Of a stretch of DNA of 64,000 bases, positions 10,271 through 63,900 are shown one piece after another; position 1 is the first letter of the stretch; each line of letters starts with the position of its first letter. Under the pieces are notes generated by a model. It was not told the origin of the DNA and did not search any database. It was given only the letters and a program-made list of their open reading frames with translations. Made by a program: the position numbers and the translations under genes. The stretch is from a virus: positions 1-64,000 of IMG/VR virus record IMGVR_UViG_3300028612_002727. One strand, given 5' to 3'.

Positions 10271-10879
10271 TCAAAGTTTACTTAGGTCGGCTGGGGTATA
10301 GTCCACAGATTTAAGCACTTTGCCAGCGGGGTAAAACTCACCGTCTATATCGGTACAATCCTCAGTTACCTTCACAGCCCACAGTGCGGTTTCTGGGTTA
10401 TTATTTTTATTGTTAAGTGTTACGGCGAACTTATCACAAGTCACACCAAGCTCTCGGTATTTATTGAGTGTCGCTTGTACGTTATCATCATTACAGAGCT
10501 TACTCATGTTTGAGTGATGAACAATATCCCAAGCTTTTAGGATGTCAAAGTTTAGCTCTTTAGATGCGGATAGTAAGGTTTCTACGATATTTAGTTCGTG
10601 TGCCGAAATACCTTCTAAAAGATATTGAAACTGAACATACTTTCCAAACAATACATAGAGACTATCCGTTATAGCATCGATTTTATCTTTTCGAGCCTGG
10701 GCCTTGAACAATTCGCGCATTTCTTCCCCGTAAAGATTAAAGTGCAATTGTAAGGATTCCACGGTGTAGTCCTTGTCTATCGGTAAGTCAAAAGCTGTGC
10801 GAAATTCCGTAACATCCTCAAAGAACTTATCGTAAATTTCAGGGGTTAAAAAGTTATAGTTAATACCATTAAGTAGCAT
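10271..10879 (-). CDS. MazG/HisE-like nucleotide pyrophosphohydrolase
   Basis: A 202-residue all-alpha NTP pyrophosphohydrolase candidate. The metal-binding pattern is visible: YGEEMRELFKA (EExxE, ~50-60), then KIDAITDSLYVLFG (DxxxD) about 12 residues on. The family hydrolyses NTPs or dNTPs to monophosphates, and phage members are thought to adjust nucleotide pools. The C-terminal ~80 residues have no assignment. The start is the ATG ending the box GGAAATTGACGATG. A position beside the polymerase and helicase genes fits nucleotide metabolism. Confidence 0.75.
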   Translation of the reverse strand: MLLNGINYNFLTPEIYDKFFEDVTEFRTAFDLPIDKDYTVESLQLHFNLYGEEMRELFKAQARKDKIDAITDSLYVLFGKYVQFQYLLEGISAHELNIVETLLSASKELNFDILKAWDIVHHSNMSKLCNDDNVQATLNKYRELGVTCDKFAVTLNNKNNNPETALWAVKVTEDCTDIDGEFYPAGKVLKSVDYTPADLSKL

Positions 10880-11857: not shown

Positions 11858-12038
11858 TTTTATCTCTCAGTAAAGGATGCTGGGGGTTTATTTCCCTCAG
11901 CGCATTTTCTAACAAAAGCACCCGTTCTATCTGGCTACTAATCTGTGTGATAAGCCGAGACTTATCACACAGGGAGCCACAACAGAATTCAGCTTCGGGT
12001 GTGTGTTGAACAATAACCCCAGGAATATGCGAACTCAT
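11835..12038 (-). CDS. Hypothetical 67-residue protein
   Basis: A small protein whose ATG overlaps the stop of DNA polymerase (ATGA), so it is translated by coupling. It has two close cysteines followed by another (CCGSLC, ~19-24) and a helical segment LITQISSQIERVLLLENAL that could dimerise. I do not recognise it. The overlaps with genes on both sides make it likely to be real. Confidence 0.6.
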   Translation of the reverse strand: MSSHIPGVIVQHTPEAEFCCGSLCDKSRLITQISSQIERVLLLENALREINPQHPLLRDKNDPNYRK

Positions 12039-14902
12039 GCTGCGGCCTCAACAGGATCATGTCCCATCAAATAAGCAACAACATTGTGCCGATACTCCAC
12101 AGGGAGTTTCTTTCCTTCCATTGACTTAGGGACATACCCTTCAAGAGAAGGTGCTTCGTCCAACTCTATCTGTCCATAAGGCGCGGTATCTGGATGGTAA
12201 GGTTCGAGTGTACGGCCTACTGAAACCGTTCCATCAAGCTTAAGCCAATTCACAAGGTCAGGGTGGTTACACATCACCTCGAGAATGCGTTTGCCAAAGT
12301 CAATAGCTTGATCCCAACGAACACTAAACACTAATTCATCGTGAATAGGCATCAAGATATCGGCATCCCATTGTGTATCAGGGGCGTTTATTTCATGCCA
12401 AAGTGTCAACATACTGCGTTTGGCGAGTGTAGCACAACCCCCTTGTATTTTAGCGTTTACGGCTTGGTTGAAGGCCCGTCTTTGGATACGCTTCGCGATA
12501 GCCGCACCGAAACTAGAGAGTGTCGGGTCGTTGTACGCATTCCACTTCGCGGTAAAATTATAATACCAATCGTCGGTACCTTCATATTTATAACGTCGGT
12601 GGCCATCGAAGATATCCACGTAACCTTGATAGCGTATCTCTTGCTGGGTGTTTATTCTCCACTGTTCCGCTACAGGGAACGTTTGACGGTAGTTGTCTGT
12701 ACCCTCCCACATTTGGTCTGAGGTCCAATTCAATTTATCTTGAACTGTCATTAACGACCCTGAGTACCAGTAGCCGAAGTTGGAAGGTTTACCCGCAGAG
12801 CCCCGCCACCATTTCGCGGCTTCATAGGGTTTTAGCTCTACGTTTTTTACAGGGTCCGTGAACACTTTCGAGTACTGTATCTTAAAGACCTCTAAGTCCT
12901 CACCTTCCAAATTCTTAACCGAACTAAGCATTTCTGCCGTAAACTCAGGGTAGTAAACGCGAAGTGCCGAGGTTGCTGCCCCTAAATGCAAATCGTCATA
13001 AGGTATCTGGCCATACGCTTTTTGGAAGTTAGGATCTTTACTTAACTCACCAATCAACACCAATTCAACCTGGGACCAATCCACAGCGACAATTAAATGG
13101 TCGTCTCTGTGAGGTAGAAAGAACCCACGAATATAAGTGGACTCGCCCCGTTTACTCAACTGCATCGGGTTAGGGTTCTCAGCGGCCATACGACGAGTGT
13201 TTAGCCTAGAACTGATTATTGGGTACATTCTCCCCGTCTCAGGGTCCGTCAATAGCAGGTAGTTAGTAATATATAACTTCATGCGTTGTTCGGTCTGGGC
13301 TAATGCGTTTATCGCTTTTATTACCCGCTGTGCGGTTTCAACGGGGTACTCTTTAGCACAGTTCTCCGCTAACTCCTGCAAAACTTCTATAGGCAACTCG
13401 GTGAGTTGACCATAACGTTTCCACTCCTTGATCCACAACGCCGGTTCTGACCCTAATCGCTCCGCTAACTCCAGTAACTTACCTCGAGCCTCCGCGTCGG
13501 TTTTAATATCACCTTTGATATAAACGAAAGGCAGCATCAATAAATCATGGAACAAGGTTCGCATCACCATGTAATGGGAGAAGTTCCCCCGCAAGTCGAG
13601 TTCCTTCTTCTTTAGCTTGAACTTTTCTTCTTCCATCCAAGGCAGCGACACCGGCCCCGCCGTAAGTGTGGCGAAATCGAAGTCCTCGACCGGCGCATCA
13701 TAATGATCTAAGGCGTCGATATACTCAGCATACCCGTTCTTTAGAAACAAAATCTTGTCACGGTAGCGCTGATACGAAATCCCTTCTTTACCCACATACC
13801 ATTTTGGTTGCTTCTGGTAGAGTCGGGGACTAGGGTCGTTAGAGAATTCAAGCTCTTGAAGAAGCTCACCCAGTTCTTTGATACCCTCCACATAGTTTTT
13901 CCGCTCAACTTCCCGTCGGCTTAGAATGGCTTCTGTATTTACCCGCCAACCTTTTACCCAGCAATCCGAATAGATATAACACATCGGGTTCTCTTGCTCG
14001 AAGAAGGTACGGATAACGGCGGGGTTCGTGTTCTGCATAAACTGACACAACCAATCATAAACCCGTACACACCAATAAGCATCGTCGGCGCCATAGTGAA
14101 GAACTTCCTCGCCGGTTAACTGACCCATGTGTGCTCGGCCTAACAGCGCGTCTTTAAATGTCGTTTGTTTGTACCCGAAGATACGCTCGGTTATCTGCTT
14201 AAGGTTGTACCCGTAGTTCAAAGACTTCACAAACCCGTTATAACTATGGTCGGCTTTTGACTCTTTACCCAAGACCTTTTGTATTAATTCCTGCTGGGCG
14301 GTGTCTAATTGCCTAAAGTCATTTACCCCCGCAAAGGTTCTGCGAATCTCAGGGATAAGCTTTTTTATCCCCATCAAATCCGATTGCCTGAACAAGTTAA
14401 TGTCGTACTGGTCGGAATTGTACGCAGATACCGCCATTTGAAGGGTATCTACATAGTTCCAACCCAAGTCAATCCCCAGGCTCTTAAGACACATCGTTCT
14501 TTCAAACGGATAGTTGTGAATTATTTTAAGCGGGTTATCTGCAAGGAACTGAATAAAGTCCCTTGCTAACTCTGGTGCTAATCGGTTTTCTTCGTCTGCA
14601 TGGGCCATGTTGGCATAGTAGACGGTAGTCTCCCCTCGGATATACAACGAAAAGCCCGTGACGGTCGTTCTGTTAATATCAAAGACCAGTTTCTTAGGGT
14701 TCTTATAATCCTCGGCGTCTTTATTCAGTTTCATAAACTGATTCAATCCATCGTGCCGGTCCGCATCATGGGTTTCGATATCGAAACCCACGGGTTGGTT
14801 CATCTGGTGAATTTTGGCTTTGATTTCCTCAAGAACGTGGGCGTTTCGAGCATCCACCAATTGCTCGACTAACCCCGTTCTCTCGTTAATTTGCGAGTAC
14901 AT
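12035..14902 (-). CDS. Family A DNA polymerase with 3'-5' exonuclease domain
   Basis: A 955-residue PolA-type replicative polymerase. The N-terminal ~330 residues hold a DEDD proofreading domain: FDIETHDADRH (~40), the HNYPFERTMCL segment (~130) and the GADDAYWCVRVY block (~268). The polymerase motifs are A, VAVDWSQVELVLIGE (~607); B, the KWWRGSAGKPSNFGYWY region (~692); and C, MPIHDELVFSV (~853). The 5' nuclease domain of E. coli Pol I is absent; a separate 5'-3' exonuclease is encoded at 20.1-20.9 kb. The ATG directly follows the stop of the gene upstream (TAAATG). Confidence 0.95.
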   Translation of the reverse strand: MYSQINERTGLVEQLVDARNAHVLEEIKAKIHQMNQPVGFDIETHDADRHDGLNQFMKLNKDAEDYKNPKKLVFDINRTTVTGFSLYIRGETTVYYANMAHADEENRLAPELARDFIQFLADNPLKIIHNYPFERTMCLKSLGIDLGWNYVDTLQMAVSAYNSDQYDINLFRQSDLMGIKKLIPEIRRTFAGVNDFRQLDTAQQELIQKVLGKESKADHSYNGFVKSLNYGYNLKQITERIFGYKQTTFKDALLGRAHMGQLTGEEVLHYGADDAYWCVRVYDWLCQFMQNTNPAVIRTFFEQENPMCYIYSDCWVKGWRVNTEAILSRREVERKNYVEGIKELGELLQELEFSNDPSPRLYQKQPKWYVGKEGISYQRYRDKILFLKNGYAEYIDALDHYDAPVEDFDFATLTAGPVSLPWMEEEKFKLKKKELDLRGNFSHYMVMRTLFHDLLMLPFVYIKGDIKTDAEARGKLLELAERLGSEPALWIKEWKRYGQLTELPIEVLQELAENCAKEYPVETAQRVIKAINALAQTEQRMKLYITNYLLLTDPETGRMYPIISSRLNTRRMAAENPNPMQLSKRGESTYIRGFFLPHRDDHLIVAVDWSQVELVLIGELSKDPNFQKAYGQIPYDDLHLGAATSALRVYYPEFTAEMLSSVKNLEGEDLEVFKIQYSKVFTDPVKNVELKPYEAAKWWRGSAGKPSNFGYWYSGSLMTVQDKLNWTSDQMWEGTDNYRQTFPVAEQWRINTQQEIRYQGYVDIFDGHRRYKYEGTDDWYYNFTAKWNAYNDPTLSSFGAAIAKRIQRRAFNQAVNAKIQGGCATLAKRSMLTLWHEINAPDTQWDADILMPIHDELVFSVRWDQAIDFGKRILEVMCNHPDLVNWLKLDGTVSVGRTLEPYHPDTAPYGQIELDEAPSLEGYVPKSMEGKKLPVEYRHNVVAYLMGHDPVEAAA

Positions 14903-15415
14903 TTACTCACCCTTTTTAGGCGGCAAAACGTAATCACCCTCTGCAAAGCTACCCGAGAGCTTAGTGACGGTAGGTGGTATTTTTTGGTTTGGCGGACCCA
15001 CCGGTTTATCACGCGTCTCTACCTTAGATTCGGCGGCAGGTATCGGTTCATCAAATAGACGGGACAACTCCCCAAGTAGCCGCTGAATGCCGCCCTCGTT
15101 GCCCTTTACCGCGAGGTACGCGTCTTTCAACGGGAGTAGCCTTTCAGGGCTTATGTACCCCATCTTGTATAAGGCGTTCTTAACCCCTTCGTCTTGGAGA
15201 AAAACTATCCGCTTAGTGATTCCCGCAAACAGCGATTCTTGTTCAGGGGTAATGACTTGCTGTTCGATAATGTCTTTGTTGAACGAGGTTTTGACTCTAA
15301 TGGCGTTACGGTAGTTATCCGACTCCGCTGCGGGTTTACATTCAGGCATCGAGGTGTCTGTACTCGCTTTAGGTAAAACTTCATCAACTTTTTGCATGGG
15401 TGGTACAAATGGCAT
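14903..15415 (-). CDS. Hypothetical protein upstream of DNA polymerase
   Basis: A 170-residue protein, proline- and lysine-rich at both ends, with a helical middle (PEQESLFAGITKRIVFLQDEGVKNAL, residues ~56-82). The start is the ATG ending the start box. It directly abuts the polymerase gene, so a polymerase accessory role is possible. I see no catalytic motif. Confidence 0.65.
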   Translation of the reverse strand: MPFVPPMQKVDEVLPKASTDTSMPECKPAAESDNYRNAIRVKTSFNKDIIEQQVITPEQESLFAGITKRIVFLQDEGVKNALYKMGYISPERLLPLKDAYLAVKGNEGGIQRLLGELSRLFDEPIPAAESKVETRDKPVGPPNQKIPPTVTKLSGSFAEGDYVLPPKKGE

Positions 15416-15426
15416 CGTCAATCTCC

Positions 15427-16542
15427 TTACATTAAAACTTCACGGTGACCATATGAGTTTAGGGCGCTAACTACACCTTCATGCTCTAAAGCCTCTACTA
15501 ACCTTGCTGCACGGCTGTAACCGATACGAAACTTACGTTGAAGGGTGGATACGTTGGCCTTACGCGTTTCAATTACAAAGGCTTTTGCTTCTTCGTAAAA
15601 AACGTCTTCGGGTTCGGGTTCGGGGTCGCAGGGTAGTTTAATTTCATGAGATAGCACTTCATCATCATCTAAATGAAAGGCTTCTTTTAGGCTCAGCGCT
15701 AAGGATAGAAGCCCATTAGCTCCGAGAAATATTTCTGACTCGAGACGGGCTTCCTGTTGGTCCTTAGGGATATCAGCGCTTTCTTCAATCAAGCGGTCAG
15801 AATACTTAATACGCTTAACCGAGCCATCTTCAACAAGCACCGCGGTTAACTGTTCGTCATAACTAACAGCAAGTTTCTGAACGAGCTTGCCTGAGTCTAA
15901 ACACAATTGAATTTCTTCTGAGTTTAGTTCCTGGTTCTTGGCTCTGATAACCGCCTTGGTTTCATCTGTGGCTTGAAGCTCAGTTTCTTCGAGTAATTCA
16001 AATTGGGTCGGGTGTCCATTCACAAGCCAGCTTGTTAGGTCTGAGGCTAGAGAGCGTCTTGCGAATGGGACAATAGGTAAACTGCCTAAGGCTTTACGCA
16101 GCACGGCAAGAAAGATTTCAGCTTCACCATCACTCGACGCGTTTACGATTATTAGCTTGTGGCTCGGGATAATTGTTCCCATTGTTGCAGTCTGGTCGGT
16201 AAAGGCTCGAGGTAAGAGCTGCGAGACAACTTGTTCTTTTAGGTCTGCCCGAGCTTTCTTACCTAACGGTGCGCCGGTTTCAGCTTCAAGTATCTTGGCA
16301 CGGACTTCTACTTCACGGGCCACAACCCGCGCTGGGATTATCTTACTTTCTTTAAGTAGCTTGACCGTATAGAAGCCATTAACCTCGTGGACCAACAACG
16401 AACCAATAACGGGAGAGAAACCTAAGGTCGCCATCGTGTGATCACCGCAAGGGTGGAAAGGGATATTTTCTAGGGCCTGGGTTAAGCCTGAGAAATCTAC
16501 GTGCTTGGTTAGTAAATAAAATTTTGCGTTTTTAAAATACAT
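15427..16542 (-). CDS. rdgC: RdgC recombination-associated protein fused to an FtsK-gamma DNA-binding domain
   Basis: A 371-residue fusion. Residues 1-~290 match RdgC along their length: YFKNAKFYLL at the start, PCGDHTMATLGF, the QLLPRAF block (~117), LRKALGSLPIVP (~155), AVIRAKNQELNSEEI (~200) and the DGSVKRIKYSD block (~245). RdgC is a ring-forming dsDNA-binding protein that restrains RecA. Residues ~318-371 match the gamma winged helix of FtsK (YEEAKAFV, STLQRKFRIGYSRAARLVEALEHEG, REVL), which reads KOPS motifs on the chromosome. The recognition helix has Ser where FtsK normally has Asn (RIGYSRAAR), so specificity may differ. An acidic linker (DPEPEPEDVF) joins the parts. The ATG ends the start box. 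Confidence 0.88.
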   Translation of the reverse strand: MYFKNAKFYLLTKHVDFSGLTQALENIPFHPCGDHTMATLGFSPVIGSLLVHEVNGFYTVKLLKESKIIPARVVAREVEVRAKILEAETGAPLGKKARADLKEQVVSQLLPRAFTDQTATMGTIIPSHKLIIVNASSDGEAEIFLAVLRKALGSLPIVPFARRSLASDLTSWLVNGHPTQFELLEETELQATDETKAVIRAKNQELNSEEIQLCLDSGKLVQKLAVSYDEQLTAVLVEDGSVKRIKYSDRLIEESADIPKDQQEARLESEIFLGANGLLSLALSLKEAFHLDDDEVLSHEIKLPCDPEPEPEDVFYEEAKAFVIETRKANVSTLQRKFRIGYSRAARLVEALEHEGVVSALNSYGHREVLM

Positions 16543-16582
16543 CGTCAATTTCCTAGTTGTTTAGTTAGTTTCTTTGTAAAGA

Positions 16583-17286: not shown

Positions 17287-17819
17287 TTTTTTTGCTCCTT
17301 GCGTAGTTGTTCGGCATACAGATTCATTGCTATTGCCATATGCATATCTATCGAAGTATTGGAGCGAAGCCAGTCTAGCGCCTCAACCTTCTTCTCTATT
17401 GCGAATTTGTTTAGTGCATCGACTGAAGACCCTTCTACAAAAGATTCATAAATATCGTCCGCCAGATGACACCTTGCATAAAGCTCACCGTCTTCTTGCA
17501 TATCCAAAAGCGGCTCAATTCGCTTTGTGAGTAATTGATGTTGAAACTCCAGTTCAGCAACACGCTGTTCTAATTTCTCGTATTCTTCATAATCTACATA
17601 CGAACCCTCAGGGCTTTCTTCTAAACCACGACACATAGGGCTTCTATGGCAGATGCACTCTTGAGAGTGATTAGGATCGTACTTTTCTTCATAGCGAATT
17701 ACCTTGGTCTGCTCTTGTTCAGACATCGTACCCCACTGCTCTTTGGTTACGTCTAAATCGGTACTACAAGTTGAACCCTCAGCATTTGTGCTAACAAAGA
17801 AGTGCATTGTTTTCATCAC
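17283..17819 (-). CDS. Coiled-coil protein of the same tandem family (member 2)
   Basis: A 178-residue protein. Residues ~45-90 contain a cysteine/histidine-rich stretch (CICHRSPMC), which may bind a metal, followed by DYEEYEKLEQRVAELE, a coiled coil. It then has LNKFAIEKKVEALDWL and the terminal AEQLRKEQKK shared with member 1. A 144-base DNA segment encoding residues ~39-86 is repeated in the next gene upstream. The first codon may be either of two ATGs. The function is unknown. Confidence 0.6.
   Translation of the reverse strand: MMKTMHFFVSTNAEGSTCSTDLDVTKEQWGTMSEQEQTKVIRYEEKYDPNHSQECICHRSPMCRGLEESPEGSYVDYEEYEKLEQRVAELEFQHQLLTKRIEPLLDMQEDGELYARCHLADDIYESFVEGSSVDALNKFAIEKKVEALDWLRSNTSIDMHMAIAMNLYAEQLRKEQKK
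17562..17705. repeat. 144-bp direct repeat, copy 1
   Basis: By eye it matches 18050-18193 at every base. This copy lies inside the 178-residue gene and encodes KVIRYEEKYD through YEKLEQR. The identity indicates a very recent duplication or unequal recombination. Confidence 0.9.
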
Positions 17820-18124
17820 TCTTGCCCCTTGCGTAGTTGTTTTACTTTATGTTTAAGCTCCGCTACTTCTCTTACAAGCTTGTTGTTCCTATCGATAACA
17901 GACACGTTTTGACGCATACGAACGTGAGCTCTTTCGCATAAGCCATGTATCTCTGTGTTATCGGTTAAAAGTTTAACTCGAATAAACTCATCGAGTAGAA
18001 GATCGTTCTGGTCAGTTGATAAAGTAAGTTCTTTTTCCAACTCCGCACAACGCTGTTCTAATTTCTCGTATTCTTCATAATCTACATACGAACCCTCAGG
18101 GCTTTCTTCTAAACCACGACACAT
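17816..18124 (-). CDS. Truncated paralogue of the tandem coiled-coil family (member 3)
   Basis: A 102-residue protein that begins inside the 144-bp repeat at MCRGLEES. Its first ~28 residues match member 2 exactly, then it diverges (LEKELTLSTDQNDLLL) and ends KVKQLRKGQE, like its relatives. The repeat continues upstream of the ATG with the reading frame open but no start codon, and runs into the stop of the gene before. It looks like a product of recombination that lost its N-terminal ~55 residues, so it may be a degrading copy. Confidence 0.5.
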   Translation of the reverse strand: MCRGLEESPEGSYVDYEEYEKLEQRCAELEKELTLSTDQNDLLLDEFIRVKLLTDNTEIHGLCERAHVRMRQNVSVIDRNNKLVREVAELKHKVKQLRKGQE

Positions 18125-18193
18125 AGGGCTTCTATGGCAGATGCACTCTTGAGAGTGATTAGGATCGTACTTTTCTTCATAGCGAATTACCTT
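18050..18193. repeat. 144-bp direct repeat, copy 2
   Basis: It matches 17562-17705. On the minus strand this copy starts at the last codons of the 144-residue gene (the Arg codon and TAA are repeat sequence) and runs into the truncated paralogue, so the junction is a recombination scar. Confidence 0.9.
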
Positions 18194-20960: not shown

Positions 20961-22031
20961 TTACTGCGCTGGACCGATTAATTCGAATTCCAACACACCC
21001 CACGTAAAGCTAAGGTTCTTAGGCGCTACTGCTTGGTTTTTCACTTTAACAAGTACCCGTTGACCTAGAAGTCCGGCTTGTTTAACCTGGCTGTGGAACT
21101 CCTGCCAGTTATGCCAGCCGGTTTTCGCCGTGGTGTGGCCCAACATAATACCCGCTTGAGCAATCGTGGTGACTTGCCCATCGGGTGCGGTGGCCACAAT
21201 ATCCTGGGTCAACTTCATAGGAAGTTGTACCGAGGGGTACGGGACGTTAGGTTTTTTCGGGTCTGTTGTGGTCCGGTAAGCGGTCATAACAGCATTTGCC
21301 CAAGGCTGGCCATCTGAACCCATTTCACCATCGTAGGTGTGAACGTAGTTAGTTTGGTCACCCGTTGGGGAAGCCACTACCCAGCGAACCATTTGGCAAA
21401 GCATGTAACCAGAGTTCTCCGTCATATCAATTTCAACTTGAAAGGGTTGAAGAATTGATTGTGGAGCGCTACCCAACGTCATACCGTGATAGGAAGTCTT
21501 AACCCAGTCCTGAACCAATAGGTCTGAACTGCCCATGGTTTCCATTGTCATTTCTCGAGCACCTAAGTACTTAGCTAGCTCGGGAGGTAGATTCGCTGGA
21601 ATATCCATGGCCGTGTTACCTTGCGGGTTTACTGCCATGGGTGTGTGTTGCTGAACGTGGTTTTGCGGTTGCTGAACGTGGTTTTGCGGTTGCTGAACGT
21701 GGTTTTGCGCTTGCTGAACGTGGTTTTGCGGTTGCTGGTAACCTTCTTGGTTCTGTGTTTGCTGAACGTGGTTTTGCGGTTGCTGAACGTGGTTTTGCGC
21801 TTGCTGAACGTGGTTTTGCGGTTGCTGGTAACCTTCTTGGTTCTGTGTTTGCTGAACCTGAGGGTTAGCTTGCTGCTGGTAACCTTCTTGGTTATTAACC
21901 ACCTGAGGGTTAGCTTGCTGCTGGTAACCTTCTTGGTTGTTAACTACCTGAGGGTTAGCTTGTTGGTGTTGTTGAGTCGCATTAGCGTTGTTTTGTGCTT
22001 CTGCGATCATTTGATCAATTTTATTACTCAT
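20961..22031 (-). CDS. Glutamine-rich repeat protein with globular C-terminus, candidate ssDNA-binding protein
   Basis: A 356-residue two-part protein. Residues ~20-130 are low-complexity repeats of QPQNHVQ and NPQVVNNQEGYQQQA type. Residues ~145-356 are globular, with no family I can name (blocks SSDLLVQDWVKTSYHG, QVEIDMTENSGYMLCQMV, TWGVLEFELIGPAQ at the end). Its position between helicase and 5' exonuclease genes, the beta-rich C-terminal part and the flexible tail make an ssDNA-binding protein plausible, but no OB-fold motif is clear. The start is the ATG of the box GATATCGACGATATG. Confidence 0.7.
   Translation of the reverse strand: MSNKIDQMIAEAQNNANATQQHQQANPQVVNNQEGYQQQANPQVVNNQEGYQQQANPQVQQTQNQEGYQQPQNHVQQAQNHVQQPQNHVQQTQNQEGYQQPQNHVQQAQNHVQQPQNHVQQPQNHVQQHTPMAVNPQGNTAMDIPANLPPELAKYLGAREMTMETMGSSDLLVQDWVKTSYHGMTLGSAPQSILQPFQVEIDMTENSGYMLCQMVRWVVASPTGDQTNYVHTYDGEMGSDGQPWANAVMTAYRTTTDPKKPNVPYPSVQLPMKLTQDIVATAPDGQVTTIAQAGIMLGHTTAKTGWHNWQEFHSQVKQAGLLGQRVLVKVKNQAVAPKNLSFTWGVLEFELIGPAQ
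21648..21965. repeat. In-frame tandem repeats (21-bp and 45-bp units)
   Basis: The 21-bp unit GGTTGCTGAACGTGGTTTTGC recurs many times, broken by a longer block with TGGTAACCTTCTTGGTT; a compound block occurs twice. A separate 45-bp unit encodes NPQVVNNQEGYQQQA. Units are nearly identical at DNA level, so the array probably varies in length. Confidence 0.9.
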
Positions 22032-36914: not shown

Positions 36915-37937
36915 TTAATCGTCTCTAAGTAAGTCAGAAACTTGTTTTACCTTTCTGGCATAATTAGCATAGTGCTCAAGACTTGGGACCTGTGCAATCG
37001 GCTCAAGCGACATTACCTCAGCCAGCGTATCGCTATTTTTTCGAAGCCAATCCAAAAGAACCTCACGCTTTCGAGCATCTGTAGCCGCTTTTGTTACACT
37101 TGGCGTCATTAAGAGAGGTAAATCATCTACGTTAAGCTTTTCTAATACGTTATTCTCTTTCGCTATACTCATAACGTGTCCCAGTGTGTTAGCAATAGCC
37201 TCCACACTATCTTCATCTAAGGGGCCGACCTTGAATTGCGGGGTAACACGATATTCACCCTCGGGTATCAACAGACAGAACTCATCCCAAATTTCGAGAA
37301 ACTGCTTATCTAGCAGAGCTACACGCTCATCGGCAGTGAACGCACTGGCCTGTTGAGGACCTGCCTGTTGAGGACCTGCCTGTTGAGGACCTGCCTGTTG
37401 AGGACCTGCCTGTTGAGGACCTGCCTGTTGAGGACCTGCCTGTTGAGGACCTGCCTGTTGAGGATATTGCTTCGGTTCCGAACGACGTTTGTGGAAACTA
37501 AGATCTTTACCGTTAATCACAAATATTTCACTACGAACCATTGAAAGAATATCTAAATATGATTCGGCAAAATCATACCCACTAAAAGCTACAGGTAGCG
37601 TGTCCTTGTGTTCTTGGTGGGCATGGTAAATGTAGAAACCTAGTTCAACATCCGCCTCGTTGGTGAATGCTTGAATAATTGCATTCGCTGTCTCAGGACA
37701 AGTGATAGGGATCTCCGTTGATAACCGGTACTGTGTTATTTCTTCTACCGCTAACAGAGTTTCGTAACTGCCAGTTGTTGCAACAGTGGGTTTCTCAGCA
37801 AGTACCTTCTTCAACCATTCCTCGTGAGAAACAGTTAAATTTTTGAGCGCACTCTCAAGTTTTTCCTTGTTCCAAATAATAATTTTGGCCGCAACAACCG
37901 CGCCATTTCCTAATTTCAGACCTTTTTTCATAGTCAT
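36915..37937 (-). CDS. Hypothetical protein with PQQAG repeats
   Basis: A 340-residue protein. The N-terminal ~155 residues (HEEWLKKVLAEKP; LLAVEEITQYRLS; FYIYHAHQEHK) and the C-terminal ~130 are globular and joined by eight PQQAG repeats (~158-197) acting as a flexible linker. The C-terminal part has LPLLMTPSVTKAATDARKREVLLDWL, split by turns. No family recognised. The ATG ends the start box. Confidence 0.65.
   Translation of the reverse strand: MTMKKGLKLGNGAVVAAKIIIWNKEKLESALKNLTVSHEEWLKKVLAEKPTVATTGSYETLLAVEEITQYRLSTEIPITCPETANAIIQAFTNEADVELGFYIYHAHQEHKDTLPVAFSGYDFAESYLDILSMVRSEIFVINGKDLSFHKRRSEPKQYPQQAGPQQAGPQQAGPQQAGPQQAGPQQAGPQQAGPQQASAFTADERVALLDKQFLEIWDEFCLLIPEGEYRVTPQFKVGPLDEDSVEAIANTLGHVMSIAKENNVLEKLNVDDLPLLMTPSVTKAATDARKREVLLDWLRKNSDTLAEVMSLEPIAQVPSLEHYANYARKVKQVSDLLRDD
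37348..37464. repeat. 15-bp in-frame tandem repeat, eight copies
   Basis: The unit GCCTGTTGAGGACCT (PQQAG on the minus strand) is repeated almost without change. Perfect identity between units indicates recent expansion. Confidence 0.95.
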
Positions 37938-45216: not shown

Positions 45217-46044
45217 TTACTTTTCCATCTGTGCTAGGATATCGGCGCGGACTGATTCAGCGAGCTTGTGCATTTCACCCCCCACCATAGCGCGGTATTT
45301 TTTCGGTAGACCACCGGCGTCCAGTTGTTCCATGTGATCATTCACTAGCGCTTTCACATGGCTTTCAACTTTTGCAAGCATTTGGGTTAATGCCTTGTGC
45401 ACGTTGGTATCTGCGGCGCGTTGTGCCTCGCCCTTGTCGGCATTATCCTTAGCATTGGCCGTTGTGCTTTTTGGCGTTTCAGCCTTGGTTTCAGCCTTGG
45501 TTTCTGCCTTGGTTTCATCCTTGGTTTCAGCCTTGGTTTCAGCCTTGGTTTCTGCCTTGGTTTCATCCTTAGGCAAATAACCCCCTAAAAATTCGAGCCA
45601 TTCTTTTCTGTTAACAGGTGCGCCCATCTCGCCGTATATATCAGCGTCCAAAATGCGATCGGCTAGCTGTGCAAAAGTGCCTTTAAATTCCAGCGCCTTA
45701 AGGCTGTCAAAAAACTTGGTGAAATATTGGCGATTCTCGCTTACATATTTTGCGTAGTCCTTCCAGAAACCTTTCGCCTGTTGATATAAGCGACTAGTGT
45801 CACGGTTGGTACGGGTGCGCTGGTTAGCCGGTACGCCGTATAAATCTAAACAGGTGGCGGTATCAATTCCTTTTTCCATGTTGTGCGCCGTAGCAATGCA
45901 AGCAATAGCCATTTTCACAGCGGGGACGCGTTTAGCGTTTTTATCCGCCGTAGTTAACACGGTAGCGAATTGGTTTAAGTCGAATGCCTTAGGTGCAGTG
46001 GTGGCAGTGGTGTTTTTTGGTGCTGGTTTGGTTGATGTAGTCAT
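45217..46044 (-). CDS. Hypothetical protein with ETKA repeats
   Basis: 275 residues. After a Thr/Pro-rich start, residues ~20-155 are helical (FATVLTTADKNAKRVPAVKMAIACIATA; FWKDYAKYVSENRQYFTKFFDSL). Residues ~160-190 are ETKA/ETKD repeats, then a charged linker and a helical end (HKALTQMLAKVESHVKALVNDHMEQL). The leader GGAAATCGACAAATG is a box variant. No family recognised. Confidence 0.65.
   Translation of the reverse strand: MTTSTKPAPKNTTATTAPKAFDLNQFATVLTTADKNAKRVPAVKMAIACIATAHNMEKGIDTATCLDLYGVPANQRTRTNRDTSRLYQQAKGFWKDYAKYVSENRQYFTKFFDSLKALEFKGTFAQLADRILDADIYGEMGAPVNRKEWLEFLGGYLPKDETKAETKAETKAETKDETKAETKAETKAETPKSTTANAKDNADKGEAQRAADTNVHKALTQMLAKVESHVKALVNDHMEQLDAGGLPKKYRAMVGGEMHKLAESVRADILAQMEK
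45477..45572. repeat. 12-bp in-frame tandem repeat (ETKA/ETKD)
   Basis: About eight copies of GGTTTCAGCCTT and close variants, encoding ETKA or ETKD on the minus strand. Confidence 0.92.
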
Positions 46045-56053: not shown

Positions 56054-56506
56054 ATGAAAAATATACTCGTAGAAACCACGGGCGCCTTTATGCTGATGAC
56101 ACGTTTTGGGGAAGTGAGCGCATTTCGCCCTAGTGTGATAAAGCATTCTCAAGAGATAAACCAGTTTGTTTCTCAAGACCAAATCAAGGTTTTGCACAAG
56201 GAGCTCCCTGAGAATGCGGACGATGCAGGGTTTTATTCCTTTTATAAAGCCCATGATAAGGACTGGGAAGCGGCCCTAGAGAACTATATCCATTCGTTAG
56301 AAGGTACTGGCGAAGATAGTTTGGACTATGCCACTAAGGACGGTGCTACTAAGGACGATGCCACTAAGGACGGTGCTACTAAGGACGATGCTACTAAGGA
56401 CGGTGCTACTAAGGACGATGCCACCAAGGACGGTGCCACCAAGGACGGTGCTACTAAGCCAACCACTAGGAAAACTGGGACTCAAGCCACTAAAGCTCAG
56501 TCTTAA
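56054..56506 (+). CDS. Hypothetical late protein with ATKDG/ATKDD repeats
   Basis: 150 residues. The N-terminal ~90 residues are folded (FMLMTRFGEVSAFRPSVIKHSQEINQFV), and the C-terminal part is a run of ATKDG/ATKDD repeats ending in a basic tail. SD TAGGAGA precedes the ATG. The position after the capsid gene suggests a structural or head-completion role. Confidence 0.6.
   Translation: MKNILVETTGAFMLMTRFGEVSAFRPSVIKHSQEINQFVSQDQIKVLHKELPENADDAGFYSFYKAHDKDWEAALENYIHSLEGTGEDSLDYATKDGATKDDATKDGATKDDATKDGATKDDATKDGATKDGATKPTTRKTGTQATKAQS
56330..56458. repeat. 15-bp in-frame tandem repeat (ATKDG/ATKDD)
   Basis: Eight full units GCYACTAAGGACGRT and a partial ninth, with only silent or D/G changes between them. 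Confidence 0.95.
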
Positions 56507-60994: not shown

Positions 60995-63900
60995 ATGGCT
61001 AAAGGTAGCTCCGCATCTAATACTATCCGTAAAACACTTCTAAACTTCACCATTGACGGTAACTCACAAAAGCAAATCGAATCGCTAGTTAAGGAATTTG
61101 AAAAACTCGAGCGGGTGACGAAAAGCTCGAGTAAGCAGTTGCAGGGGTATTTGGCTCAGATCCCCGATACTCCCGCGGGTCGTGAAAAGCTTGCTTCAAA
61201 TGCTAAGAACGAAGTCAACACCCAGCGTAAAATTCTCCAAGAAAATGAGAAGAATGCTAAGGCGATACTTGACCAACTGGCCCTCACTATTGGTAAAGGG
61301 TTAAATCCTCAGCAACAGCAACAGTTGTTAAAAGGGCTAAATACGGCAATGGGTGAAATCACCGGCCGATTTACGAAACAAGCCCAAGAGCAAGCTAAAA
61401 AAATGGCTGCGTCTCTGGATACTTATTACAAGAAACAATTTGATAGCAACCCCACGATTAAGCGTCGCCGCCAGATTGACCCTAATGCGGTTCGTGATTA
61501 CAACCAGCGAGATTTAGCGAATGCTTTGGCCAGTCAGCGTATTTTTAGAAAAGGGGCGAGTGAGGCTTTAAAAGATGCGCAACGGTTGGGTGACACCGAG
61601 GCCATCGCGAGATTCAAAAAGAAATTACAGAGTTTGGACGCGGGTCTTACTGCGGCTGAAAAGCAGTTAAAGAAATTTGAAACTACCGCCAGCGAGGCCG
61701 CTAAACAATCAACCAAGGTACGTAAAGAGGCGGAGCGTAAAACGCTTGCTGACTACCGTAGGGAGGCGCTACGCCTTGACCCCACGGTTCCTAAGACAGA
61801 TCCATTACGAAAAGACGCCTTACGGTCGCTAACTCGGGACCAAATCCAAGTTGAGATAGATAAGAATAAGGTTTTAAAACGCGCTGCGGACTCGGCTTTA
61901 AAACAAGGGTTGACGGCAGGTGACACCTCTTTAATACGGGATAGTAGCAAAGCCTTAAAAGAACTTAAGCATAGTACCAAAGAAGCTAAAGAACAGCTTT
62001 CCCAGCTAACTATTGAGAGTCGTAAAGCGGCAGATGCCGAGAAAAAAGCTCAGCAAAAAGCGGCGTCTCTGGATACCTATTACAAGAAACAATTTGATAG
62101 CAATCCCGCGATTAAGCGTCGCCGCCAGATTGACCCTAATGCGGTTCGTGATTACAACCAGCGAGATTTAGCGAATGCTTTGGCCAGTCAGCGTATTTTT
62201 AGAAAAGGGGCGAGTGATGCTTTAAAAGACGCGCAACGGTTGGGTGATACGGACGCTATCCCTAAATTCAAAAAGAACTTACTACGTTTAGATGCCGGTA
62301 TTGCTGCGGCTGAAAAGCAGTTAAAGAAATTTGAAGATACGACCAGAGAGGCCGCTAAACAATCAAACAAGGCACGTAACGAGGCGGAGCGTAAAACTCT
62401 TGCGGACTACCGTAGGGAGGCGCTACGTCTTGATCCCACTGTCCCTAAGACAGACCCGTTGAGAGGGGGTAGTTTACGCTCTCTCACTCGAGATCAAATC
62501 CAAGTTGAGCTGGATAAAAATAAAGTCTTAAAAGGTGCGGCAGATAAAGCTTTAAAGCAAGGGTTGGACACAGGTAACACAGCATTAGTAAGGGATAGTA
62601 GCAAAGCCTTAAAAGAACTTAAGAAAAGTACCAACGAAGCTAAAGAACAACTTAAGGCCCTTACCAGACAAAGCCGTGAAGCCGAACAGCTAGAACGGGA
62701 GAAAATTAAGGGAGCTAAAGCTAAGGCCCCTGTCACTGAGCAGCAACGCGTAAACCGAAGAATTGAACAGATACAGCAAGCGAGAACAAACCAACGTCTC
62801 GATGGGGGTGCTCAGTTATTTCGAAACCAAGGGCAACTTCTACGTAACTATGCGGTTATGGGTGCGGGTATCGGAGGGATTACGACCTCGGCGATATTCT
62901 CCACCGAGCTTGACCGGCAGTTTAAGCAGCTCCAGTCGATAGTTAACCTTACCAATGTGGAAATGGAAGAACTTTCGACAAATCTTATTGATGTGTCGGA
63001 GAAAACGAAGTTTACGGCTACCGAGGTTGCGGATGCGGCGATTACACTGGGTCAGGCCGGTTTAGGTCAAAAGGATATTCAAAATGCGATAGAGGGCGTT
63101 ACACTCTTTGCTACCGCCGTAGGTTCAGATTTAAAAAGCGCCGTAGACCTCGCCACGTCCACGCTGGGGGTATTTAATAAAGATAGTTCTCAGATGCTTA
63201 ATATCGTGGACAAAATGACGACCGCGGTAAACAACTCGAAACTAAACCTCGACAAACTGACTTTAGGTTTGCAGTACTCGGGTAACCTTGCGGCTCAGTC
63301 GAATGTGACCTTTGAAGAAACAGTCTCGGCGTTAGGTGCAATGGCCAACTCAGGGATTAGAGCGGGTTCAACGTTGGGCACAGGTTTACGTCAAATAATT
63401 ATTTCGTTACAGAAGCCCTCAGACACATTTATACGAACGGTTCAGGCCTTAGGTATTTCAATGTCTGATCTTGATATCACTGCCCATGGTTTAATCCCTG
63501 TGATGCGAACTCTCGCAGAGCGAGGGTTTACCGTTCGTGACGCCATGGAGAGTATGGAAGTTCGGGCAGCATCAGCCTACGGGGCCTTTGCCAACAACAT
63601 TGAAGTTGCGGAGGAATTAAGCGAACAAATGCGTATTGGTGGTTCTTCGGCGCGAGCGAACGAAACCCAGATGGGTGCGTTGTCTAACCAGTTAGCGCGA
63701 TTAAGCTCTATCAGTAAGTCGATTGTTTATGAGTCTCTTGAACCCCTCTTAGATGTTATAACCGGTTTAACTGAAACCACGGCGGACTTTTTATCCGTGG
63801 TACGTGATTTAGGCCCCGCGCTAAGTGTGCTGGCGGTTCCTGCGTCAATCTTCGGTAGCTTACTGGCTTCACGTAGCGTACTGAGTCTTGGTGCGGGTTT

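Follow-up and report, generated by a model that had tools for sequence, protein, structure and literature searches.

E. coli RdgC is a ring dimer that binds DNA and restrains RecA (Drees 2006 and Briggs 2007, as cited in PMC11077077). In a 64,000-nucleotide stretch of viral DNA (hereafter referred to as the window), which belongs to a virus record 75,962 bases long, one gene joins an RdgC protein to the gamma domain of FtsK. Here we ask how this fusion was assembled and what a gamma domain might do on a phage RdgC.

The gene runs on the minus strand from an ATG at 16542 to a stop codon at 15427-15429, in an unbroken frame. Its parts are as follows.

15427..16542, minus strand: RdgC-FtsK gamma fusion gene (P0001), 371 residues, defined by its open frame and Pfam matches.
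16551..16554, minus strand: AGGA, a likely ribosome-binding site, in a repeated AGGAAATTGACG-ATG start context read from the sequence.
15673..16542, minus strand: RdgC domain, residues 1-290 (PF04381, E = 3.7e-81; fold of 2owl/2owy).
15613..15672, minus strand: acidic linker, residues 291-310 (pLDDT below 50 at 298-308).
15430..15612, minus strand: FtsK gamma winged helix, residues 311-371, with the recognition stretch QRKFRIGYSR (PF09397, E = 5.6e-23; fold of 2ve9).

The first-pass annotation, made from the letters and open reading frames alone, had placed RdgC at about residues 1-290 and an FtsK gamma domain at about 318-371, separated by an acidic linker. A domain search, which it had proposed as a check, put both Pfam families over their cut-offs in the one protein, far past chance: PF04381 scored 273 bits (cut-off 25) across model positions 1-296 of 298, and PF09397 (FtsK_gamma) scored 81 bits (cut-off 30.6). 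The RdgC match covers residues 1-290 as proposed, and the gamma domain is real and ends at residue 371, but its start lies nearer 311 than 318. Among the NCBIfam models, the RdgC part reached subfamily NF001464 (241 versus 227) and not the equivalog models, and PHROGs matched the RdgC family phrog_724 together with several gamma-containing families. Pfam and NCBIfam returned RdgC and gamma only, and an FtsK/SpoIIIE ATPase motor domain was not found in the protein.

An AlphaFold2 model of the fusion protein, built from 33 sequences, has a mean pLDDT of 90.7, and residues 298-308, within the acidic linker, are disordered. Foldseek matched its N-terminal part to E. coli RdgC (2owl/2owy; target TM about 0.9, rmsd about 2 Å). 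The C-terminal region, for which a structure prediction had also been proposed, does model as an FtsK gamma fold, superposing on 2ve8/2ve9 at 0.5-0.7 Å for the best chains; 2ve9 is the P. aeruginosa FtsK gamma domain bound to KOPS. Among viral models, the gamma domain of the Sam46 small terminase was also matched. We reject an assembly artefact, as the frame is continuous and the same architecture occurs in many unrelated records.

RdgC and the gamma domain are known families, and one earlier case of gamma on a phage protein, with a different partner, has been published: the small terminases of Bacillus phages Sam46 and Sam112 carry an N-terminal FtsK_gamma, with a role stated as unknown (PMC8190038). 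They are likewise phage DNA proteins with a host-type gamma domain, but theirs is N-terminal on a packaging subunit, whereas that of the window is C-terminal on RdgC. Residues 1-290 resemble the RdgC proteins of E. coli and P. aeruginosa (PF04381; 2owl, 2owy) over their full length and in fold; unlike the fusion, the known bacterial RdgCs and all 80 that we sampled end near 300 residues without gamma. The C-terminal part shares its fold and contact loop with FtsK gamma (PF09397; 2ve9, 5dcf). In contrast to FtsK, however, the window protein lacks membrane and motor domains, bears its gamma domain on RdgC and has Ser in place of Asn at E. coli position 1296. Lambda RexA (PMC11077077) likewise shows an RdgC-like fold in a phage protein, but it is a two-domain exclusion protein without gamma. 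The first-pass annotation knew of no described protein of this architecture. We also found no description of RdgC joined to FtsK gamma in the literature searched, which did not extend to subscription journals and preprints, but the architecture itself is common in phages, where it is deposited mostly as plain RdgC.

By tblastn, 50 public phage records have a single place that spans 80% or more of the query; most are full-length matches in phages of Vibrio, Pseudomonas, Achromobacter and Pararheinheimera, with the proteins annotated as RdgC, exonuclease or recombinase. IMG/VR viruses with this architecture number in the dozens. Vibrio phages PS14A.1, SHOU24, ST2-1pr and D60, Pseudomonas phages CF63a and Skulduggery, Achromobacter phage CF418P1 and KLER1-1 share the domain order of the window protein at 366-406 residues, but represent separate RdgC lineages, all with Asn at 1296 and for the most part labelled RdgC or exonuclease. 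Some records, D60, K279 and Skulduggery among them, were reached by way of their gamma domains and confirmed as RdgC-gamma by Pfam. Gamma is present in 23 of the 80 viral RdgC loci that were fetched by RdgC patterns, and on none of the 80 bacterial RdgCs sampled, a set that is mostly Vibrio. A gamma-based scan, which is biased by its patterns, yielded about 31 further viral RdgC-gamma loci, and two RdgC-gamma genes, presumably prophage-borne, are among the second gamma copies in 296 host-order genomes. When mapped on a tree of 65 RdgC domains, gamma requires seven changes (gains or losses), at least six of them forced by well-supported branches, while some rows sit on long branches and their exact placement is unsure. 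The RdgC-gamma join appears, from these sequences, to have arisen several times in phages. One locus (L242:2606-4180) encodes a three-part fusion, in which about 140 extra N-terminal residues matching phrog_20424 precede RdgC-gamma.

The close relatives of the window phage bear on how the join was made. The fusion gene belongs to a replication and recombination block that also encodes a family A DNA polymerase, helicases, primase-like proteins, an SbcC-like protein and a DNA ligase; the phage has a tyrosine integrase as well. The closest annotated polymerase is that of Pseudoalteromonas phage KB12-38 (51%), whose corresponding block holds a divergent gamma-less RdgC. Three features are relevant here.

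12035..14902, minus strand: family A DNA polymerase, by tblastn to phage DNA polymerases.
14903..15421, minus strand: downstream gene of 172 residues, conserved in position in the sisters and without a Pfam match.
15430..15654, minus strand: extra codons 297-371 of the fusion gene, missing in the five sisters (L001-L005) and starting at their stop codon.

These five IMG/VR sisters have an RdgC 80-81% identical to that of the window, in matching context, which ends at 295-296 residues without gamma, and no gamma was found anywhere in the five records. In the two best-aligned sisters, the extra codons of the window start exactly at the sister stop (...DDDEV-LSHEI... in the window versus ...DADEV-stop), and TAAGGAGATTGACGATGCC, after the stop, is common to the window and the sisters. 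In the RdgC tree, the window clade nests among Alteromonadaceae RdgCs (Glaciecola, Aliiglaciecola and Marinifaba). Because these are gamma-less, a gain of gamma in the line of the window is the simplest reading of the sequences, with loss in the sisters a possible alternative. Since one clade offers natural pairs with and without gamma, the role of phage gamma-domain genes, given as unknown in PMC8190038, becomes directly testable.

The gamma domain of the window is closest to that of Glaciecola FtsK (67%), whereas, among the FtsKs compared, P. aeruginosa FtsK is the best match for the gammas of Pseudomonas phages CF63a, Skulduggery and D14P and of Achromobacter phage CF418P1; the comparison uses 60-residue domains, which limits its resolution, and an unbalanced FtsK set. 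This pattern fits independent captures of gamma from host-lineage FtsK. Phage RdgC gammas and the FtsKs compared share 50-69% identity. The window gamma and Glaciecola ftsK have similar GC and 60% DNA identity, so the window gamma is no very recent copy. Both the RdgC and the gamma domain of the window find their nearest cellular relatives among Glaciecola-type bacteria, so it appears that phages assembled this fusion from host components more than once. A fusion that is recurrent, phage-only in our samples and host-built points to a real selective use.

The contact loop of the gamma domain is under constraint. Residues 1289-1297 of E. coli FtsK read RQFRIGYNR and their counterparts in the window RKFRIGYSR, and across the loop Q-R-x-x-[RK]-I-G-Y-N every position is kept except Asn, which is Ser. 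The first-pass annotation had correctly picked out this substitution, which falls at E. coli position 1296 and is unusual: Asn is found there in 18 of 19 phage RdgC-gamma domains and in all sampled FtsKs. These 19 domains were gathered without exact gamma-loop patterns, and loci retrieved with the QRKFRIGY pattern were left out to avoid ascertainment bias. Across them, five FtsK-invariant contact positions are kept at 0.99, and for 28 further FtsK-invariant positions the figure is 0.70 (p = 0.0007 by permutation). The loop is thus retained while the rest of the domain drifts. The five positions contact XerD in E. coli and are a subset of those that contact KOPS (PMC5052618). As the KOPS and XerD contacts lie on one shared surface, sequence cannot separate the two partners.

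We consider it close to an even bet, if anything slightly worse, that gamma is a flexible, host-derived tail that directs the RecA-restraining RdgC ring to KOPS-like duplex sites. Judging from the two families, the RdgC part would form a DNA-encircling dimer that blocks RecA access to duplex DNA, and gamma would act as the tip for targeting and loading, recognising KOPS-like octamers and their orientation in duplex DNA. While the phage replicates and recombines, gamma would concentrate or load the ring at such octamers on the host chromosome, and possibly at polarised sites in phage DNA. We favour this reading because both domains pass their Pfam cut-offs and match solved folds, including a KOPS-bound gamma; because gamma sits on 23/80 viral against 0/80 bacterial RdgCs and recurs on the RdgC tree; because gamma is host-derived, with its contact positions kept and KOPS polarised in gamma-bearing genomes; and because it is also found on beta-clamp-like phage proteins and a small terminase.

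The polarity of KOPS (GGGNAGGG) was compared between phages with and without gamma. In 17 gamma-bearing genomes, KOPS shows the strongest strand polarity among 56 octamers of identical composition: 6 of 102 copies take the minority orientation, and the next-best octamer has 15%. In 17 gamma-less genomes, by comparison, KOPS ranks eighth, with 18 of 97 copies in that orientation. Record permutation gives p = 0.002 for this link, and 0.013 after removal of four near relatives; eight of the 17 gamma-bearing genomes share 11-40 kb and form one clade, and collapsing them (G306-G313) weakens the polarity further. The gamma-less sisters of the window are KOPS-polarised too. A tie between KOPS polarity and gamma is therefore only suggestive.

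Several observations count against targeting. The first-pass annotation had suggested placement of RdgC at set sites on host or phage DNA, or an effect on XerCD/dif recombination. Such placement is plausible, but KOPS or dif sites of the window phage itself find no support as targets: in the window, KOPS is at chance (4 seen versus 6.1 expected) and no dif-like site was found. In the gamma-bearing Vibrio phages PS14A.1 and SHOU24 KOPS is missing altogether, and collapsing related phages lowers the polarity signal. The window has Ser for an invariant Asn, and XerD is touched by the contact residues as well. Binding to one KOPS takes three gammas (PMC5052618, citing Loewe 2008); an RdgC dimer supplies two. 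Finally, gamma also occurs alone or on proteins without known ring formation.

Most gamma-bearing phages are unremarkable in how much KOPS and dif they contain. This, and the drift of phage RdgC gammas to the identities given above, would also suit a general duplex-DNA-binding winged helix that raises the DNA affinity of RdgC without sequence or partner specificity. We regard this as rather unlikely, since the reading loop has hardly changed amid drift in the remainder and one rare domain, not just any winged helix, is reused.

A role as a protein-contact tail, in which gamma contacts host XerD and changes XerCD-dif recombination, with RdgC reducing the crossovers that produce dimers, seems about equally unlikely. 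The XerD-contact residues Q1288, R1289, R1292, I1293 and G1294 are retained in the window, and the nine-residue E. coli loop by itself activates Xer recombination (PMC5052618). However, these residues also read KOPS, and Asn1296, which bonds XerD Glu119, is Ser in the window. Moreover, beyond the window, about 34 other gamma-bearing phage records gave just two weak dif-like matches (three mismatches), neither convincing; the search on Vibrio and Glaciecola genomes gave matches with two mismatches. Host takeover, with gamma occupying KOPS or XerD, competing with host FtsK and hindering chromosome segregation and division, is highly doubtful, because, although gamma is host-derived with its FtsK contact surface kept and small stand-alone gamma proteins exist in viruses, the genes lie in replication and recombination blocks by SSB, exonuclease and polymerase, not in takeover gene clusters, and takeover gives no reason for the link to RdgC. 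If targeting of the RdgC ring is true, the fusion would illustrate how phages direct a RecA antagonist to particular DNA, and the gamma domain would be a reusable address reader outside FtsK.

Gamma also has other partners in phages. Two loci (L247:2180-3082 and L261:2001-2900) encode a beta-clamp-like N-terminal part (NCBIfam DnaN, E = 1.1e-6) followed by a C-terminal gamma, and Gordonia phage Hedwig gp56 combines gamma with a weak match to clamp structures (E = 0.0013), although all beta-clamp matches of gamma proteins fall below curated cut-offs. A 50% identical relative of the first two (L262:2001-2642; DnaN, E = 3.2e-7) lacks gamma, so that the add-on pattern seen for RdgC is repeated on another ring protein. 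Mycobacterium phage Sejanus gp65 carries gamma and is deposited as a sliding clamp. An AlphaFold2 model of the clamp-gamma protein, built from two sequences, reached a pLDDT of 29.5. Because several gamma partners (RdgC, the clamp-like proteins, small terminase and FtsK) are DNA rings, phages may repeatedly graft FtsK gamma onto DNA-encircling proteins as a portable, orientation-reading ring loader, as at KOPS for the FtsK hexamer. We hold this generalisation to be rather unlikely, given the stand-alone gamma proteins and the partners of unassigned fold. Three loci (L388, L389 and L259) have gamma at the N or C terminus of uncharacterised proteins of roughly 280-300 residues. Separately, PHROG families 3007 and 12598 are labelled RusA-like resolvase, but their members look like beta-clamp domains, a possible annotation error.

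An 18-bp palindrome, GGTGGGGNNNNCCCCACC, occurs in 12 copies between 28880 and 46093 of the window, most of which precede a minus-strand start codon by about 20-40 bp, and was not found in the five sister phages or gamma-less relatives. In one sister without gamma, the corresponding region holds 11 copies of another palindrome (GGGGGA stems); the element is thus not gamma-specific, and we rejected it as a gamma target. It is possibly a 5' hairpin or an operator with quick turnover.

Other repeats are present in the window. The start context GGAAATTGACGATG (or GGAAATCGACGATG) precedes many genes of the window phage and a sister, for example at 10878, 16532, 27440, 34496 and 40856. A 158-bp direct repeat, 97% identical, spans adjacent small genes (17548-17705 and 18036-18193), indicating a recent duplication. 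Several predicted genes contain short in-frame tandem repeats (21616-21945, 37348-37464, 45452-45582 and 56281-56473), and the structural region at 61392-62682 contains a tandem duplication with 654-bp spacing and 78-90% identity.
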